A stretch of DNA of 64,000 bases from Veillonella caviae (lineage in GTDB: Bacteria; Bacillota; Negativicutes; Veillonellales; Veillonellaceae), in assembly GCF_003992125.1 (NCBI RefSeq), contig NZ_RQUY01000005.1, positions 1 through 64,000 of the forward strand, read 5' to 3'. Of this stretch, positions 27,409 through 39,112 are shown in pieces. Made by a program: the position numbers and the translations under genes. The notes below the pieces were generated by a model. It saw nothing but the letters and a program-made list of their open reading frames with translations. It did no database searches and had not been told where the DNA came from. Positions within the stretch are counted from its first letter, which is position 1; each line of letters opens with the position of its first letter.

Positions 27409-29448
27409 CTAAGACAATCTCTCCAAATGCACTTGCACATCATAAAACGTACTACCCCAACCTTCATCTGTAGGTCTGTCTGCTGTAAGAGCATTGATTC
27501 CTACACAGGGGTCACTACATTGTTCTTGCCACCATACACCAAGCGTTACGAGGGTGCCTTCGCGCACACTTTTATCAAGATAGGCAGTGATTTCCATACG
27601 ACCACGGTTATTATAAATGGCCACCCGATCACCATCTACGATGCTATAATCGCTAGCATCCACAGGATTGATGCGTAAATTCATAAGTTCTTCATCGCCG
27701 TAATCTAATTCGCAAAAACTAGAATCTAAAATACGAATATCATTGCCGTTAATGAGCCAAAATGGCGCATCATCACCGTATGGCGCAGTATATTGAATGA
27801 GAGGGACACTTTCACAAGGATTCAATATTTCGATTTTGCCAGATAACGTTTTAATATCTAATTTGTAATTCTCAGGCAGCATCATCTCTACAGGTTCACC
27901 GGCCAACAACAAATCTTGCTCTTCTTGTGAAAGCAAATCAGAGCCGCGCACCATAGATTTGATAAGGTCCGTTTCAGATTGTTTAAAAAACGCATCATCA
28001 AGTCCCATACGTTGGGCTAGTAATGAAATAACATCCCAATTAGATTTTGATTCACCAATAGGGTCAATTAATTGATATCCCACACCGATTGTATAGTGAC
28101 CATATGGATTGTAAATATCATTGTGTTCCACCGATGTAGTGGCAGGTAGAATAATATCTGCGTATTTGCAAGTATCCGTAAAGAATCGTTCATGAACGGT
28201 GACGAATAAATCATCTCTCATGAGGCCACGGCGCACGAGATTTTGATGAGGTGCCGTAATAGCCGGATTGGAGGAAAAAATATAAATACTATGAATTGGA
28301 GTAGTTCGGAATTCTGAGTCCAAGCCATGTTCATAAAGAGCATTGGGATTCGTCAACAAATCACCTAAAAGAATCATAGGCATCACCCGTTTAGGCGGAG
28401 CAGGATGATTTGGTTGCTGCATATAAGATTTATCTAAAAATACTCCAGTACTAGCACTAGATAACAATCCTCCGCCTAAATGCCGCCATGCTCCTACGAC
28501 GGCAGGCAAAGCATTAATACAGCGACAAGTCATGGCACCATTGCCATACCGAGACAATCCACTGCCGAGGCGAATAAACGGTGCTTTCGATGTAGCATAA
28601 GCATGTGCCAATTCTGTCATTTGCGACACAGATACGCCACAAATTTCAGATGCATATTCAGGAGTAAATCGGGGCAATACTTGTTCTACTAATTCATCGT
28701 AACCTTGTACATAACGCTGGATAAATTCAATATCATCAAGACCATCTCTATGGATAATGTGCATCATCCCCAATGCTAATGCGCCGTCTGTGCCTGGCTT
28801 TATATATACATGATGATGAGCCTGATCAAAAGTATATGTTTTGTGGGTGTCAACAATCCATACTTGAGCGCCTTTACGTTTAGCTATATTTACATCGTGC
28901 AAAATATGTACATCTGTGGCCGTCGCGTTGATTCCCCACAATATAATGCAATCACTATGTTGTGCTTCTTGCGGTTTAATAGCCAAAGTATTGCCATATA
29001 AGGATTTAAATCCCGCTTGTTTTGCAGGAGAGCAAATACCTCTATCTTGATCTGTAGCACCGATACGACGGAAAAAATAATCTGCTGCAGGACTATTTAC
29101 AGCTCCCATAGTACCTGCATAGGAATAACGCAGAATACTTTCACTGCCATATTGATTGATAACTTCTTTAAAATTATTGACAATCGCATCAAGCGCCTCA
29201 TCCCAAGAGATAGGCATATACTCGCTAGGCCCTATCCCCTTTTTCCCCACTCGTTTTAACGGTGTTGTAAGTCGTTTAGGGGAATGGATGATTTTTTCAT
29301 AATGCGTCATCTTAGGACACAAAGCCCCTCTTGTGAAAGCGTGTTCTCTATTACCACGCACCTTGACTATCCTATTATTATCTACAGTTACGATTAATCC
29401 ACATGCATCGGGACAATCGTAAGGACATACACTCTTGTACTCTTTCAT
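27409..29448 (-). CDS. Molybdopterin-dependent oxidoreductase (DMSO reductase family)
   Basis: A 679-residue enzyme. An N-terminal 4Fe-4S site is formed by Cys8, Cys12, Cys16 and Cys44 (CPYDCPDAC, then ALCPK), followed by the molybdopterin-binding core and the C-terminal dinucleotide-binding domain. There is no Tat signal, so it is cytoplasmic. A Cys in the GICSPAKQAG stretch is a candidate metal ligand. It resembles the poorly characterised YoaE-type subgroup; the substrate is unknown, and no electron-transfer subunit or maturation gene is adjacent. AAAGGAG precedes the ATG at 29448. Confidence 0.88.
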   Translation of the reverse strand: MKEYKSVCPYDCPDACGLIVTVDNNRIVKVRGNREHAFTRGALCPKMTHYEKIIHSPKRLTTPLKRVGKKGIGPSEYMPISWDEALDAIVNNFKEVINQYGSESILRYSYAGTMGAVNSPAADYFFRRIGATDQDRGICSPAKQAGFKSLYGNTLAIKPQEAQHSDCIILWGINATATDVHILHDVNIAKRKGAQVWIVDTHKTYTFDQAHHHVYIKPGTDGALALGMMHIIHRDGLDDIEFIQRYVQGYDELVEQVLPRFTPEYASEICGVSVSQMTELAHAYATSKAPFIRLGSGLSRYGNGAMTCRCINALPAVVGAWRHLGGGLLSSASTGVFLDKSYMQQPNHPAPPKRVMPMILLGDLLTNPNALYEHGLDSEFRTTPIHSIYIFSSNPAITAPHQNLVRRGLMRDDLFVTVHERFFTDTCKYADIILPATTSVEHNDIYNPYGHYTIGVGYQLIDPIGESKSNWDVISLLAQRMGLDDAFFKQSETDLIKSMVRGSDLLSQEEQDLLLAGEPVEMMLPENYKLDIKTLSGKIEILNPCESVPLIQYTAPYGDDAPFWLINGNDIRILDSSFCELDYGDEELMNLRINPVDASDYSIVDGDRVAIYNNRGRMEITAYLDKSVREGTLVTLGVWWQEQCSDPCVGINALTADRPTDEGWGSTFYDVQVHLERLS

Positions 29449-30120: not shown

Positions 30121-31260
30121 ATGGCAGACGCAAAAAACACTGTGCTATTCCCTTATGAAACACTAAAAAAACTTTGCATGGACGCATTCCAAAAATTCGG
30201 TTTCTCCGAAAAAGAAGCGGACATCATCCAAGATGTACTTTTGACTTCCGACTTGTTCGGTATTCAAAGCCATGGTATGCAACGTATGGTTCGTTACCAC
30301 AAAGGTATCGAAAATGGTTTGATTAAAATCGACGCAAAACCAGAAGTTGTATTCGAAACTCCTGTATCCGCTGTTATCGAAGGTAACGACGGCATGGGCC
30401 AAGTATTGGGCCACAAAGCTATGGAAATGGCTATTGAAAAAGCGAAAAAATCCGGTGTTGGTATCGTATCTGTACGTAACTCCAACCACTATGGTATCGC
30501 TGGTTACTACGCAAAAATGGCTTCCGATCAAGGCTTAATTGGTTTCTCCTGTACTAACTCCGAAGCAATCATGGTTCCTACATATGCTCGTAAAGCTATG
30601 CTTGGTTCCAACCCTATCGCTTGGACAGTACCTGCTGATCCTGTAGATTTCTTCTTCGATTGCTCCACTACAGTAGTAACTCGTGGTAAATTAGAAATGT
30701 ACAACAAAATGGCTAAAGCTACTCCAGATGGCTGGGCTGTAAATAAAGATGGTGTTCCTTCCACAGATGCAGCAGAAGTGCTTGGCAACATCTCCCGTCA
30801 TGAAGGCGGCGGTATCCTTCCTTTAGGTGGTGCTACAGAAGTTCTTGGCGGTCACAAAGGTTATGGTAATGGCATGATTGCTGAGTTATTCTCCTCCATC
30901 TTATCCCAAGGCGGCACTTCCAACAAATGTATGGTTGGCGGTCGTTCCAATATTTGCCACGGCTTCATGGCTATTAACCCTGAGTTCTTCGGCGATGCTG
31001 CGGAAATCAAAAAACACTTCTCTCAATTCTTACAAGAATTACGTGAAGCACCTAAAGCAGAAGGTCAAGATCGCATCTACACTCATGGCGAAAAAGAAAA
31101 TGAATCCGTTGAAAAAGTTAAAGCAGAAGGCATTCCTGTACTTAATGGTACAATGGTAGAAGTGCTTGAACTTTGCGAAGCTTTGGGCTTAGACTTCTCC
31201 TCCTACTTCGGCGATTACAGACCAGAAGCTCCTGCTAACATGTTCAAAGGTAACTACTAA
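30121..31260 (+). CDS. Ldh2-family malate/L-lactate dehydrogenase
   Basis: A 379-residue NAD(P)-binding oxidoreductase of the malate/L-lactate dehydrogenase (YlbC-type) fold, unrelated to classical LDH. Visible signatures are SDLFGIQSHGMQRM with the conserved His, SVRNSNHYGIAGYYA, YARKAMLGSNPIAW and the GGHKGYGNG loop. Codons look strongly biased (TTC, AAC, GGT, CGT and CCT favoured), indicating high expression. It is followed by a lactate permease. Lactate or malate is therefore the likely substrate; related enzymes act on ureidoglycolate or sulfolactate. In Veillonella this is a good candidate for the biochemically known lactate-malate transhydrogenase (inference). Confidence 0.85.
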   Translation: MADAKNTVLFPYETLKKLCMDAFQKFGFSEKEADIIQDVLLTSDLFGIQSHGMQRMVRYHKGIENGLIKIDAKPEVVFETPVSAVIEGNDGMGQVLGHKAMEMAIEKAKKSGVGIVSVRNSNHYGIAGYYAKMASDQGLIGFSCTNSEAIMVPTYARKAMLGSNPIAWTVPADPVDFFFDCSTTVVTRGKLEMYNKMAKATPDGWAVNKDGVPSTDAAEVLGNISRHEGGGILPLGGATEVLGGHKGYGNGMIAELFSSILSQGGTSNKCMVGGRSNICHGFMAINPEFFGDAAEIKKHFSQFLQELREAPKAEGQDRIYTHGEKENESVEKVKAEGIPVLNGTMVEVLELCEALGLDFSSYFGDYRPEAPANMFKGNY

Positions 31261-31313
31261 TACCTAAATACTTAGTAAATGGCCCTAACTAGGACATGTA
31301 GATAGCATAGAAA

Positions 31314-31350
31314 GGGACATAAACTTGGTTTATGTCCCCTTCTTTCTTTT
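31314..31350 (+). terminator. Terminator after the Ldh2 gene
   Basis: GGGACATAAA (31314-31323) pairs with TTTATGTCCC (31329-31338) around CTTGG and runs into a T-rich tract. Confidence 0.85.
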
Positions 31351-31372
31351 TAACACCGTATGGTGTTAAAAA
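31347..31372 (+). promoter_or_regulatory. Second hairpin ahead of lctP
   Basis: TTTTTAACACC (31347-31357) pairs perfectly with GGTGTTAAAAA (31362-31372) around GTAT. It directly follows the Ldh2 terminator, 186 bp before lctP. It may be a lctP operator or a back-up terminator. Confidence 0.4.
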
Positions 31373-31557
31373 ATTTTATACCCTTTATCAATTTTTATGA
31401 TAAGTCTATTGTTTATTTTTATTTAAAGCCTTATTTTATCTGACTTATTACAATTTAATAGAGTAGCAATAAACTCATCAAAATTATTGATTAGGGTAAC
31501 TGCATCGTCCTAGACGCTATATAAAAGTTTATATTTAACGAAAGGATGATTCCACAA

Positions 31558-33192
31558 ATGAGTGCCTTAACAGTACTTCTAGCCCTCTTGCCAATCATCT
31601 GGTTAATTGTGGCTCTATCAATTCTAAAATTGCCTGCATGGAAAGCCACTTCCGTAGCAGCAATCGGCTCTTTCATTGTAGCCATTACATATTTCCAAGC
31701 GGATCCAATGATTATGTTGTCCGGTGCCCTCGAAGGTGCAGCTCTTGCTATTTGGCCAATCCTTTTGGTTATCACAGCAGCTATCTTCGTTTACAACCTT
31801 GTAGTACATACAAAAGCTATGGAAACCATTAAAACAATGTTGTCTTCCGTAACCAGCGATATGCGTGTACTCGCATTATTACTTGCATGGGGCTTCGGTG
31901 CTTTCATGGAAGGTATGGCTGGTTTCGGTACAGCCGTTGCGATTCCTGCAGCAATGATGGTAGCTGTTGGTTTTGACCCACTCAAATCTATCATTGCTTG
32001 TCTTGTTGCGAATTCCGTACCAACTACATATGGTTCCATCGGTATTCCAACAACAACATTGGCATCTTTAACAGGTCTTGACCCTGTACATCTTGGTACA
32101 TTCATCGCTGTTCAATTATTCTTATTAAACCTTATCGCACCGTTCTTCGTAGTTATGATTATCGGTGGCGGTTTCAAAGCACTAAAAGGCGTATTTCTAG
32201 TAACATTCCTTTCTGGTCTTGCCCTTGCAGTGCCAGAAGTTATTATCAACAAACTACTTGGCCCTGAATTATCTGTAATCTCTGCTTCTATCGCTATCAT
32301 GGCTGTTATCATTCTTTGTGCAAAATTCTTACCACCGAATGATCCTGCATACCAAGTTAAACAAGCAGACGCACCAAAAGTTTCTGGTAGCGAAGGTGTA
32401 ATTGCAGCAATGCCATTTATCTTAATTTTCGTATTGTTATTATTAACTTCTAAATTGTTCCCTGCTATCAATGGTCCTTTGGCATCTATTAAAACATCTG
32501 TGCCAATCTACCAAGGCGAAGGAGCTAAACCTTACACATTCGTATGGATTGCTACACCAGGTATCATGATTTTCATCGCTGGTATCCTTGGTGGTTTTAT
32601 TCAAAAAGCATCTGCTGGTGAAATCTTTGGTACTTTAGGTTCTACAGTTAAAAACTTGAAATTTACATACCTCACTATCATCACAGTTGTAATGACTGCA
32701 AAATTAATGACATACTCTGGTATGACTATTGAAATCGCAAATGCATTAGTTGCCGCTACTGGCACTATGTACCCAGCATTCTCCCCTATCGTAGGTGCTT
32801 TAGGTGCATTCTTAACAGGTTCTGGTACAAATTCCAATGTATTGTTTGGCCCATTACAAATTGCATCTGCTCAAAGTTTAGACCCTGCAAACTGGGAAGA
32901 TCTTGGCTTCTGGTTGGCGGCAGTTAACTCCGGCGCAGCTGGTATTGGTAAAATGTTATCTCCACAATCTATCGCCATCTCCATTGGTGCTGTAGGGCCA
33001 GCTTTAAAAGCATATCTTGACAGCCACAAGGAAATTACTCCTGAAGAGGCACACAAATTAGAACACGAAGTAGAAGCAAACGTTATCATGAATAGCGCTT
33101 TCAAATACTTCTTGATTTTCATCATCATGCATGGTGCCATTGCATTCTTTGGACAAAATTATATCCACGTAATTCACAAAGTTTTCTTCTAA
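31558..33192 (+). CDS. lctP: L-lactate permease
   Basis: A 544-residue LctP/LldP-family inner-membrane carrier importing lactate with protons. Family blocks are GFGAFMEGMAGFGTAVAIPAA, GSIGIPTTTLA, the FLTGSGTNSNVLFG motif and the late NSGAAGIGKMLSPQSIAI motif. Strong codon bias resembles that of the upstream dehydrogenase. The ATG at 31558 is preceded by AAAGGA; an ATG inside that site (31546) is less likely. Lactate is the main carbon source of veillonellae, so import and oxidation genes sit together. Confidence 0.96.
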   Translation: MSALTVLLALLPIIWLIVALSILKLPAWKATSVAAIGSFIVAITYFQADPMIMLSGALEGAALAIWPILLVITAAIFVYNLVVHTKAMETIKTMLSSVTSDMRVLALLLAWGFGAFMEGMAGFGTAVAIPAAMMVAVGFDPLKSIIACLVANSVPTTYGSIGIPTTTLASLTGLDPVHLGTFIAVQLFLLNLIAPFFVVMIIGGGFKALKGVFLVTFLSGLALAVPEVIINKLLGPELSVISASIAIMAVIILCAKFLPPNDPAYQVKQADAPKVSGSEGVIAAMPFILIFVLLLLTSKLFPAINGPLASIKTSVPIYQGEGAKPYTFVWIATPGIMIFIAGILGGFIQKASAGEIFGTLGSTVKNLKFTYLTIITVVMTAKLMTYSGMTIEIANALVAATGTMYPAFSPIVGALGAFLTGSGTNSNVLFGPLQIASAQSLDPANWEDLGFWLAAVNSGAAGIGKMLSPQSIAISIGAVGPALKAYLDSHKEITPEEAHKLEHEVEANVIMNSAFKYFLIFIIMHGAIAFFGQNYIHVIHKVFF

Positions 33193-34711: not shown

Positions 34712-37700
34712 TTACTCAAACATGGTTGCCAACAATAATTTCAACCGATTAGCCTGATTAACAGCACTCGATCCTGGGTCGTAATCAATAGCAGCAATGC
34801 GCACATCTGGATAGGCTTCAGATAATGTTTTTACCATCCCTTTCCCAGTAACATGATTTGGTAAGCAACCAAATGGTTGTAAACATACTACTTGTTTTGC
34901 ACCTTTTTCGATAAGGTCTATCATATCCCCCGTAAGAAACCAGCCTTCGCCACATTGGTTGCCAAGGTCGATAAAATGGGATGCCTCTTTTGCCACTTTT
35001 GTCATCCGTTGTAGTGGGTCGAAATGTTTCGATGCCGCAACAGCTTTAGCATATGGCAAACGATAGAGTTCCAACGCCTCTCTCGCCAATGTACCAAAGA
35101 AACCAGATAACCATGTACCGTCCAAGTGTTTAGCGCGATATGTACTGTCCATAGCACAGTATAAGAAAAAGTCTAAGAGACCAGATGTAATAACTTCGCC
35201 ACCTTCTTTTTCAATCAGTTCATTAATATGATTATTCGCACTAGGGTGGAATTTTACATAAATTTCTCCTACTACGCCAACACGTGGTTTAACAATGCTT
35301 TTATCAATAGGCAAATTATCAAAATCTTTAATGATATTCTTAATGTAACTATTGTATTGACGCAAACTAGCCGTCGTAATGTGCTGACGCAACTTATCAA
35401 TCCAATAATCACACAGTGCATTAACAGATCCAGGATTCATCTCATAAGGCCGAGTTGCCAATACACATTGCATCAATGCATCACCGTATACAATGGCTTG
35501 AATCATTCGATGTAAGAACCGCTTCGTCAAGGAAAATCCTGGTTGTTTTTCCATATTGCTAGCGTTGAGAGATAAAATAGGCACCTGTTTAATACCTGCA
35601 TCAATCAAAGCTTTACGAAGGTAACCAATGTAGTTCGTCGCACGACAGCCACCACCTGTTTGAGAAATAATAACCGCTGTCTTATTTACATCATATTTTC
35701 CTGAAAGCAAAGCTCTCATCAACTGGCCTACAACAATGATAGCAGGATAGCACGCATCATTGTTAATATATTTTAGTCCCACCTCGATATCTTCACGAGT
35801 CGGCGCCGATAACATTTCAAAATCATAGCCTTCTGAACGGAGCACTGGGTCCAAGAGGCTAAAATGGATTGGTGACATTTGAGGCACTAGAATTTTATAA
35901 GACTGTGCCATTTCCTTCGTGAATACAATACGTTCATAATCGTATGCTGGCATTGTATCAACTTGCGTTTCTACAGATACCTCAGAATTATGGCGGTGAC
36001 GCATACTCCGTGCCATAACAGACTGTAACGAGCGCAATCGAATTGTAACAGCTCCTAGATTGGTACCTTCGTCAATTTTAAGAAGGGTATGGATTTTATG
36101 CTTTGCAGACAAAATATCTTTCACTTGATCTGCTACGATAGAATCGAGTCCACAACCAAAGGAGTTGAGTTCTACAATTTGGAATCCTTCTGTACGGCTC
36201 ACAAATTCTGCAGCACGATATAAACGGCTATGATAGGACCATTGATCCACAACGCGAAGATGCTTGATGTCTTGCCCCAATGGCGCCACTCCATCTTCGG
36301 TAAGCACAGCCATACCGAGAGATGTAATGAGCTCAGGAATACCATGGTTAATACCAGAATCCAAATGATAAGGGCGACCTGCTAATACAATGGTCGGCAC
36401 TTGCTCTGCTACGAGTCGAGAAACAATTTTTTTCGTTTGTTCTCGATAATCAGCTTTACAAGACTCTTGCTCATCCCATGCTACATCTACAGCATAGGAA
36501 ATTTCGGATTTAGAAAAACCTAATCCTTTAAGTGCTTTCACAAGCGCAGAAACAAGAGATTGTTTATCTGCTAAGGGCAAAAATGGTGCATAAAACGGCG
36601 TATCACCAATCACATCTTGCATATTGTTTTTAATAAGTTCCGCATAGGAAATGACCATTGGGCAGTGATAATTATTGTCTCGACTAAATTCCTTTGGCCC
36701 ATGTTGTACACAAGGATACCAGATAAAATCTACTTGAGCATTCGCCAAATCGCGGATATGACCGTGTACCGCCTTTGCAGGATAGCACGCTGTGTCGGAC
36801 GGAATAGTATCTATCGCCTTATTGTACTGATTTTTCGTCGTATATTCTGAAAGCACCACTTCACAGCCCAATTTATTAAAGAATGTGAACCAAAATGGAA
36901 AGTCCTCATACATATTGAGGACACGTGGGATGCCAATACGCAATTTACCTTCAAATTCAGGCAAATTTTTCTTCAAATAGTAGTCAAAATATCGGCGCAA
37001 TTTCGCGTCGACCATATTCGGTACAGGTTTGCGCTTTTCCTGAATCATATCTCCTGCACCGCGATCACAACGATTCCCAGTTACATATGTGCGCCCATCG
37101 GAGAAAGCATTAATGGTGAGCATGCAATTATTGGAACACAATCCACAGTTGCGCATAGATGTAGATACCTTCAATGAATGTAAGCCGTTTAAGTCTAAGA
37201 GTGTACTATATGGTAATGCAACACCGTCTGCGGTTATCATTGCTGATTGATTTGTATCAGCAGTAGTCACATTAGGTAGTACTACAGATGCAACAGAATT
37301 AGCAGCCCCTTGATTTGCTGTAGCAGATGTACCGACATGACTATGTTCTTTGGCTGCGTCTATATGCTCAGCCGCAGCCTCGGATGCCAGGAGAGCCATG
37401 CCGTAAGCACCCATAAGGCCTGACACATCTGGGCGGATAACTTCAACCCCCATGAGTTTCTCAAAAGCACGGAGCACAGATTCATTATAGAAGGTACCAC
37501 CTTGTACTACTACGTGTTCTCCTAATTCTTTTGGATCTTTTACTTTTAATACTTTGTACAAAGCATTTTTAATAACGGAATACGCCAAACCAGCTGCAAT
37601 ATCGGGTACAGTAGCACCTTCTTTTTGCGCTTGTTTTACCTTGGAATTCATAAATACAGTACAGCGAGATCCCAAGTCGATTGGCATCGGTGCTAACAAG

Positions 37701-39112
37701 CCCTCTTTAGCAAATTGGTCGATAGGAAGGCGTAAGGATGTGGCAAAGGTGTCGATAAAGGAACCACAGCCAGAGGAACAGGCTTCATTTAATACGATAT
37801 CCTCAATATACCCATCACGAACTTTAGTACATTTCATATCTTGTCCGCCTATGTCTAAAATAAAGGACACATCTGGGCAGAAAAATTGGGCTGCACGATA
37901 ATGAGCAATGGTTTCAACTTCACCAATATCAATACCTAAAGCTCTTTTTAGAAATGTTTCACCATAACCTGTTACACCAGAATGTCCAATGTAAGCGTCT
38001 TTTGGTAAAAGCTCATAAATTTTCTCTATTATTTCACGAGATTTTTCCAATGGCTTGCCATAGTTAGGACCATAGTGAGAGAAAATAATTTCATTATGGC
38101 TGTTAATGAGCACCACTTTCAGCGTTGTAGATCCAGCATCAATACCGAGGTAACATGGACCTACAGCATCTTCAATGCGCGCCTTTGGTGTTACTGCCTT
38201 ATTATGCCGAGCACGGAATTTGGCTAACTCTTCTTCGTTGTTAAATAGAGGTTCCATGCGATCTGTAGCATCCATAGGAATACCGATGAGATCACCGATT
38301 TCTTTCGTTAGTTGCCCCACCGTAATATGACGGCAACCATCACTCATCAAAGCCGCACCTACGGCAATAAATAATTCGCCGTTCTCGGGGATAATACGAT
38401 GTGTTTCATCAAGTCCCAACGTATGGCAGAAGCATTGGCGAAGTTCGGATAAGAACGTCAATGGTCCCCCAAGAAATACCACATTACCTTCGATTTTATG
38501 ACCACATGCAAGGCCTGCAATAGTCTGATTTACGATAGCTTGAAATACAGATTTCGCGATATTCTCATGAGATGCCCCTTGATTTAACAAGGCTTGTACA
38601 TCTGTTTTTGCAAATACCCCACAACGAGCCGCAATAGGATATGTTGTATCAGCGTTCATAGCCAATTCGTTTAACCCAGATGCATCAGTTTGGAGCAATG
38701 TGGCCATTTGATCAATAAAGGCTCCTGTACCACCTGCACAAGAACCATTCATACGATGCTCCGCAGTTTGACCAAGATACGTAACCTTTGCATCTTCCCC
38801 ACCAAGTTCGATAATAACATCTGTTTGTGGATATAATGCTTTCACAGCCTTCGTCTCTGCAATTACTTCTTGTACGAAAGGTATACGCACCTTATCAGCC
38901 ATAGCCATACCACCAGACCCAGTAATAGCTACGCGCACACATGCATCTTCATACCCTACTTGAGCTTCTTTCAATAAGGTATACACTGTATCTATAATAT
39001 TGGCATAATGACGAATATATTTTTTGTACAAATAGTTACCGTGTTCGTCCAGGAGCACAACTTTCACAGTCGTCGAACCAACATCGATCCCCATGCGTAA
39101 CAATTGTTGCAT
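34712..39112 (-). CDS. 2-hydroxyacyl-CoA dehydratase activase-related fusion protein
   Basis: A 1466-residue cytoplasmic protein. Residues 1-260 and about 325-590 are two BcrAD/BadFG ASKHA ATPase domains (GIDVGSTTVKV and GIDAGSTTLKV phosphate loops; the cluster-ligand Cys in NGSCAGGTGAFID and EACSSGCGSFID). Near 655-695 is a Cys-rich NCGLCSNNC segment, then a DUF2229 domain (IGIPRVLNMYEDFPFW, TACYPAKA) and a C-terminal HgdB-like domain (NNDACYPAI). HgdC-type activases inject electrons with ATP hydrolysis into dehydratases. Such giant fusions are widespread in anaerobes but of unproven function. The start at 39112 follows GAGAGG. Confidence 0.87.
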   Translation of the reverse strand: MQQLLRMGIDVGSTTVKVVLLDEHGNYLYKKYIRHYANIIDTVYTLLKEAQVGYEDACVRVAITGSGGMAMADKVRIPFVQEVIAETKAVKALYPQTDVIIELGGEDAKVTYLGQTAEHRMNGSCAGGTGAFIDQMATLLQTDASGLNELAMNADTTYPIAARCGVFAKTDVQALLNQGASHENIAKSVFQAIVNQTIAGLACGHKIEGNVVFLGGPLTFLSELRQCFCHTLGLDETHRIIPENGELFIAVGAALMSDGCRHITVGQLTKEIGDLIGIPMDATDRMEPLFNNEEELAKFRARHNKAVTPKARIEDAVGPCYLGIDAGSTTLKVVLINSHNEIIFSHYGPNYGKPLEKSREIIEKIYELLPKDAYIGHSGVTGYGETFLKRALGIDIGEVETIAHYRAAQFFCPDVSFILDIGGQDMKCTKVRDGYIEDIVLNEACSSGCGSFIDTFATSLRLPIDQFAKEGLLAPMPIDLGSRCTVFMNSKVKQAQKEGATVPDIAAGLAYSVIKNALYKVLKVKDPKELGEHVVVQGGTFYNESVLRAFEKLMGVEVIRPDVSGLMGAYGMALLASEAAAEHIDAAKEHSHVGTSATANQGAANSVASVVLPNVTTADTNQSAMITADGVALPYSTLLDLNGLHSLKVSTSMRNCGLCSNNCMLTINAFSDGRTYVTGNRCDRGAGDMIQEKRKPVPNMVDAKLRRYFDYYLKKNLPEFEGKLRIGIPRVLNMYEDFPFWFTFFNKLGCEVVLSEYTTKNQYNKAIDTIPSDTACYPAKAVHGHIRDLANAQVDFIWYPCVQHGPKEFSRDNNYHCPMVISYAELIKNNMQDVIGDTPFYAPFLPLADKQSLVSALVKALKGLGFSKSEISYAVDVAWDEQESCKADYREQTKKIVSRLVAEQVPTIVLAGRPYHLDSGINHGIPELITSLGMAVLTEDGVAPLGQDIKHLRVVDQWSYHSRLYRAAEFVSRTEGFQIVELNSFGCGLDSIVADQVKDILSAKHKIHTLLKIDEGTNLGAVTIRLRSLQSVMARSMRHRHNSEVSVETQVDTMPAYDYERIVFTKEMAQSYKILVPQMSPIHFSLLDPVLRSEGYDFEMLSAPTREDIEVGLKYINNDACYPAIIVVGQLMRALLSGKYDVNKTAVIISQTGGGCRATNYIGYLRKALIDAGIKQVPILSLNASNMEKQPGFSLTKRFLHRMIQAIVYGDALMQCVLATRPYEMNPGSVNALCDYWIDKLRQHITTASLRQYNSYIKNIIKDFDNLPIDKSIVKPRVGVVGEIYVKFHPSANNHINELIEKEGGEVITSGLLDFFLYCAMDSTYRAKHLDGTWLSGFFGTLAREALELYRLPYAKAVAASKHFDPLQRMTKVAKEASHFIDLGNQCGEGWFLTGDMIDLIEKGAKQVVCLQPFGCLPNHVTGKGMVKTLSEAYPDVRIAAIDYDPGSSAVNQANRLKLLLATMFE

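Follow-up and report, generated by a model that had tools for sequence, protein, structure and literature searches.

The question raised by this locus is whether an Ldh_2 gene standing next to a lactate permease gene in Veillonella caviae encodes malate-lactate transhydrogenase (MLTH, EC 1.1.99.7), which opens lactate breakdown in a genus abundant in the mouth and gut and which was left without a sequence until March 2026. The window (the whole stretch of DNA that was analysed, 64,000 nucleotides) holds the features listed below, in which residues are compared with AllD, the ureidoglycolate dehydrogenase of E. coli, and the clade is a group of 51 sequences that includes the window protein.

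30121-31260, + strand: Ldh_2 family gene, 379 aa, almost certainly malate-lactate transhydrogenase (PF02615 at 380 bits; orthologue of V. parvula Vpar_1595)
30268-30273, + strand: Ser50-His51, family motif at the nicotinamide (Ser43-His44 of AllD), invariant in all 51 sequences of the clade
30487-30489, + strand: His123, equivalent of His116, the proposed general base of AllD; invariant in the clade and the outgroup
30559-30564, + strand: Ser147-Glu148, clade-typical pocket pair (49 of 51 members), equivalent to the substrate-contacting Ser140-Asp141 of AllD
31314-31372, + strand: two terminator-like hairpins (31314-31338 and 31347-31372) between the MLTH gene and lctP, from a pattern scan and suggestive only
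31546-33192, + strand: LctP-family lactate permease, 548 aa (TIGR00795 above cut-off, PF02652)

The reading frame starts with ATG and its product has a calculated mass of 41.06 kDa, in agreement with the reported subunit of about 40 kDa. In the profile search the Ldh_2 match has an E value of 8.8e-114 and lies far above the cut-off of 38.8 bits, and the window genome carries exactly one gene of this family. An AlphaFold2 model (pLDDT 86, pTM 0.87) matched 27 PDB entries at E <= 0.001, all of them with the Ldh_2 fold, the best being 3i0p, 1v9n and 2x06 with TM 0.83-0.88 over the query; a three-domain non-Rossmann fold is therefore predicted, this fold alone being matched at that threshold. Codon usage is strongly biased, with an effective number of codons of 32.3, the lowest among the 38 window reading frames of at least 120 aa, and C is found at 68% in the two-fold boxes ending in a pyrimidine. 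The permease frame begins 285 bases after the MLTH frame on the same strand, ranks fifth in the window for codon bias (effective number of codons 37.7) and is matched by PF02652 (Lactate_perm, 363 bits) and TIGR00795 (lctP, 346 bits against a cut-off of 341). The initial annotation, which had described an Ldh2-fold dehydrogenase at 30121 with strong codon bias just upstream of lactate permease, is thus borne out.

The same annotation had proposed this gene as a candidate for lactate-malate transhydrogenase. The gene question for MLTH, open for decades, was answered by experiment in March 2026: Guillaume & Branco dos Santos 2026 (PMC13034625) purified the activity from extract of V. parvula DSM 2008, and Vpar_1595, a protein of the Ldh_2/AllD family of about 40 kDa, was identified as MLTH by LC-MS/MS with a Mascot score of 4657, the next hit that was not a contaminant scoring 64, its amino-acid composition being the best match in the proteome (PMC13034625). 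Recombinant His-tagged Vpar_1595 converted malate plus pyruvate to oxaloacetate without added NAD(P), and both substrates were required (PMC13034625). The genome of DSM 2008 holds exactly one Ldh_2 gene, which is followed by lctP and lies at 1,815,019, a position that corresponds, when gene numbers are scaled, to a tag of about 1,580-1,630; its product and the window protein are identical at 356 of 379 residues (94%), with 23 substitutions and no gaps. Since the gene is single in both genomes, the orthology is unambiguous, and that the window gene is the orthologue of Vpar_1595 is not in doubt. With a 94% identical single-copy orthologue that has the activity (PMC13034625), the proposal is supported, and the window gene can be regarded as encoding malate-lactate transhydrogenase with near certainty. 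The orthology fixes the annotation of the window gene, now malate/L-lactate dehydrogenase or Ldh family oxidoreductase.

It could be supposed, as automatic annotation does, that the gene encodes an ordinary Ldh_2 dehydrogenase for malate or L-lactate, one that depends on NAD(P) and exchanges it as free cofactor; the best solved relatives are indeed named malate dehydrogenase (1v9n of P. horikoshii and 3i0p of E. histolytica) and sulfolactate dehydrogenase, and the residues of the cofactor pocket are the standard set of the family. Against this stands the 94% identical single-copy orthologue, which is active without any NAD(P) and needs both substrates (PMC13034625), and in the tree the window protein falls inside the clade of this orthologue, apart from the relatives of about 40% identity. 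The two malate dehydrogenases share the fold (TM 0.83-0.88) and the catalytic and cofactor residues with MLTH, but they are about 40% identical, lie outside the clade and differ from MLTH by its one-residue insertion, Gly229, and by about 30 clade-typical residues. In view of the assay of the orthologue a free-NAD dehydrogenase was rejected, and it is now considered very improbable. Still less credence, close to none, is given to the idea that the transhydrogenase is encoded elsewhere and the window gene serves another 2-hydroxyacid: Ldh_2 families do act on ureidoglycolate, sulfolactate and diketogulonate as well, but the activity purified from V. parvula was traced to the orthologous gene (PMC13034625), and a single Ldh_2 gene is found in each of the 29 Veillonellaceae genomes searched, among them DSM 2008, so that neither the window genome nor the other 28 hold a second one.

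The probable course of the MLTH reaction can be drawn by comparison with AllD (4fjs, 4fju, 4h8a), for which structures of NADH and ternary complexes are available and in which the equivalent residues stack on the nicotinamide, bind cofactor or substrate, or act as base, NADH being bound in a non-canonical fold in this family (PMC3527362). AllD shares the non-Rossmann NADH fold and the His/Arg/Tyr active site with MLTH, but it is 30% identical, has another substrate and exchanges free NAD+. In the alignment His44, His116, Pro158, Asp174, Lys224 and Gly306 of AllD correspond to His51, His123, Pro165, Asp180, Lys246 and Gly323 of the window protein, and the AllD-equivalent residues Ser50, His51, Arg55, Tyr59, His123, Pro165, Asp180, Lys246 and Gly323 are all present in it and invariant in the clade. 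At the position of Ser147-Glu148, Ldh_2 relatives of 40% identity mostly carry Ala-Arg, and Gly229 is present in every clade member. Lactate would enter the cell, probably via the neighbouring permease, LctP being the presumed uptake route, and would sit over the B-face of an enzyme-bound NAD that is not released; the hydroxyl proton would go to a histidine and the hydride to the bound nicotinamide. Pyruvate would then depart, oxaloacetate would take the same pocket and receive the hydride, and the malate released would be directed to the fumarate/succinate/propionate branch. This order of steps, as well as the way in which NAD is retained, is what we infer for the window protein.

Older work quoted in PMC13034625 describes MLTH as having tight or covalent NAD and ping-pong kinetics, and according to older biochemistry quoted there the NAD remains attached, covalently by that paper's account, from one half-reaction to the next. 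At the cofactor contacts the window protein has the same residues as ordinary Ldh_2 enzymes that use NAD(P); sequence comparison names no residue accounting for NAD retention, and the clade-typical residues may be treated as candidates only. The missing GxGxxG motif was taken to speak against a mobile cofactor (PMC13034625), an argument that was set aside as uninformative: 1v9n, 3i0p and AllD are also without the motif, and AllD demonstrably uses NAD+ yet lacks it. A chance match, GNGMIA, is present in the window protein as well as in the orthologue from DSM 2008.

As for the metabolism of the host, neither an Ldh_1 family lactate or malate dehydrogenase nor Mqo was found in the window genome by family searches (the genome being 99.99% complete), therefore MLTH is its only recognised oxaloacetate/malate oxidoreductase; malic enzyme is present. 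A canonical Ldh_1-type enzyme was likewise not found in V. agrestimuris, while most other Veillonella searched have one, and an Ldh_1 protein over the cut-off was found in 21 of 29 Veillonellaceae genomes. V. parvula DSM 2008 shares with the window genome the single MLTH copy and the adjacent lctP but differs in having an additional Ldh_1 protein, which resembles L-LDH and scores slightly under the equivalog cut-off. Also encoded in the window genome are a LutB-type protein that exceeds its cut-off, its LUD-domain partner and, upstream of them, a LutA-like/LdhH-like protein. This LutABC-like cluster (L128:1839-4765) is followed by a gene for a dicarboxylate/amino acid symporter, and elsewhere a 940-aa FAD_binding_4 protein of the FAD/Fe-S dehydrogenase type (L129:2226-6226) stands divergent from another LUD-domain gene. 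Because of the Lut-type genes and the 940-aa protein, further routes are probable, and lactate is probably oxidised by them too. It fits that, by our own reasoning, the formation of 2 propionate per acetate needs 2 oxaloacetate per 3 lactate, so that one third of the lactate needs another acceptor, or malate has to be reoxidised.

Within Veillonella an lctP homologue lies directly 3' of the MLTH gene in 16 of 22 loci, and one further locus ends at a contig edge. The two genes are probably not a simple operon, as the two predicted hairpins in the gap make such an arrangement improbable; the pattern scan gave 5 hairpins in the region where 2.4 (sd 2.0) were expected. On the other side of the MLTH gene, a molybdopterin oxidoreductase of 679 aa is encoded divergently (window 27409-29448, - strand), and in most Veillonella loci its homologue adjoins MLTH; in the V. 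seminalis/ratti group it is found 3' of MLTH too. Downstream lies a fused BadF/BcrAD ATPase - DUF2229 protein of 1466 aa (window 34712-39112, - strand) of the 2-hydroxyacyl-CoA dehydratase activase type, a neighbour that is kept across close Veillonella species. The idea that MLTH of the V. seminalis/ratti group belongs to a metabolic operon was not retained, the nearest upstream gene being that of an M48 peptidase; the genes upstream of MLTH in this group, judged from N-terminal sequences, are presumably those of ribosomal protein L9 and DnaB.

What is new here, and absent from PMC13034625, is that the MLTH clade reaches beyond Veillonella and includes members in the citrate-breakdown clusters of lactobacilli. 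A search of named genomes recovered members of 64-75% identity in Lactobacillus gigeriorum, pasteurii, colini, psittaci, corticis and xujianguonis and in Limosilactobacillus mucosae, and members of the same 64-75% identity in contigs of Oscillospiraceae, Lachnospiraceae, Erysipelotrichaceae, Synergistaceae, Spirochaetales and Victivallaceae, many of the non-Veillonella contigs being metagenome-assembled genomes (MAGs), in which single cases may be binning errors. They are like MLTH in this identity, in Ser147-Glu148 (49 of 51) and in Gly229, but they are found beside genes of citrate lyase, or of malic enzyme with lactate racemase, instead of lctP. In the rest of the order one of 33 genomes holds any Ldh_2 gene, which is 36% identical. 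The gap between 64% and 42% identity was discarded as a true limit of the clade; it is partly an artefact of the peptide-pattern search, and Peptoclostridium acidaminophilum has a member at 52%. A quick maximum-likelihood tree with long outgroup branches joins all 51 members in a single group (SH-aLRT 96; 100 when the Peptoclostridium relative at 52% is included), with the Lactobacillaceae nested among the Veillonella sequences (support of 97 for the joint group and 90 for the inner join). This nesting indicates horizontal transfer and points to it as the way in which the clade may have spread.

In Lactobacillus the clade gene lies inside or beside citrate lyase clusters (loci L064, L067, L069, L074, L090 and L123, with citC, citD, citE, citF, citX, a DASS-type transporter and an RraA-like protein). 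In L. pasteurii (L067) the clade gene has genes for an RraA-like protein, a DASS-type transporter and a hydrolase to one side of it, and citC-citD-citE-citF to the other; neighbours of this kind (citC, citX or a transporter) occur in L. gigeriorum, colini, psittaci and xujianguonis and in strain UBA5804. In MAGs of Bacilli/Erysipelotrichaceae (L077, L083, L084 and L092) the clade gene is followed by malic enzyme and then by a LarA-type lactate racemase. Citrate lyase yields oxaloacetate, malic enzyme acts on malate and the racemase on lactate, thus each context would supply a substrate of MLTH or take its product, and guilt by association would tie the clade members to MLTH chemistry. A literature search on the Lactobacillus context of these genes found nothing.

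With moderate confidence the following is proposed: MLTH would occur beyond Veillonella as a horizontally spread clade in lactobacilli and several other gut lineages, and the Lactobacillus copy would reduce citrate-derived oxaloacetate to malate with the cell's own lactate as hydride donor, sparing the NADH pool. If the wider clade has the same activity, lactic acid bacteria and other anaerobes also exchange hydride directly between lactate and oxaloacetate, and the drawing of their citrate/lactate co-metabolism would change. The remaining interest lies in the mode of NAD retention and in these putative members outside Veillonella. Two of the MAG contigs, L084 and L092, are near-identical though labelled with different taxa, and a 3-kb contig (L097, from a MAG labelled Peptostreptococcaceae) carries a fragment 94% identical to the Veillonella-type MLTH, probably through a binning error.
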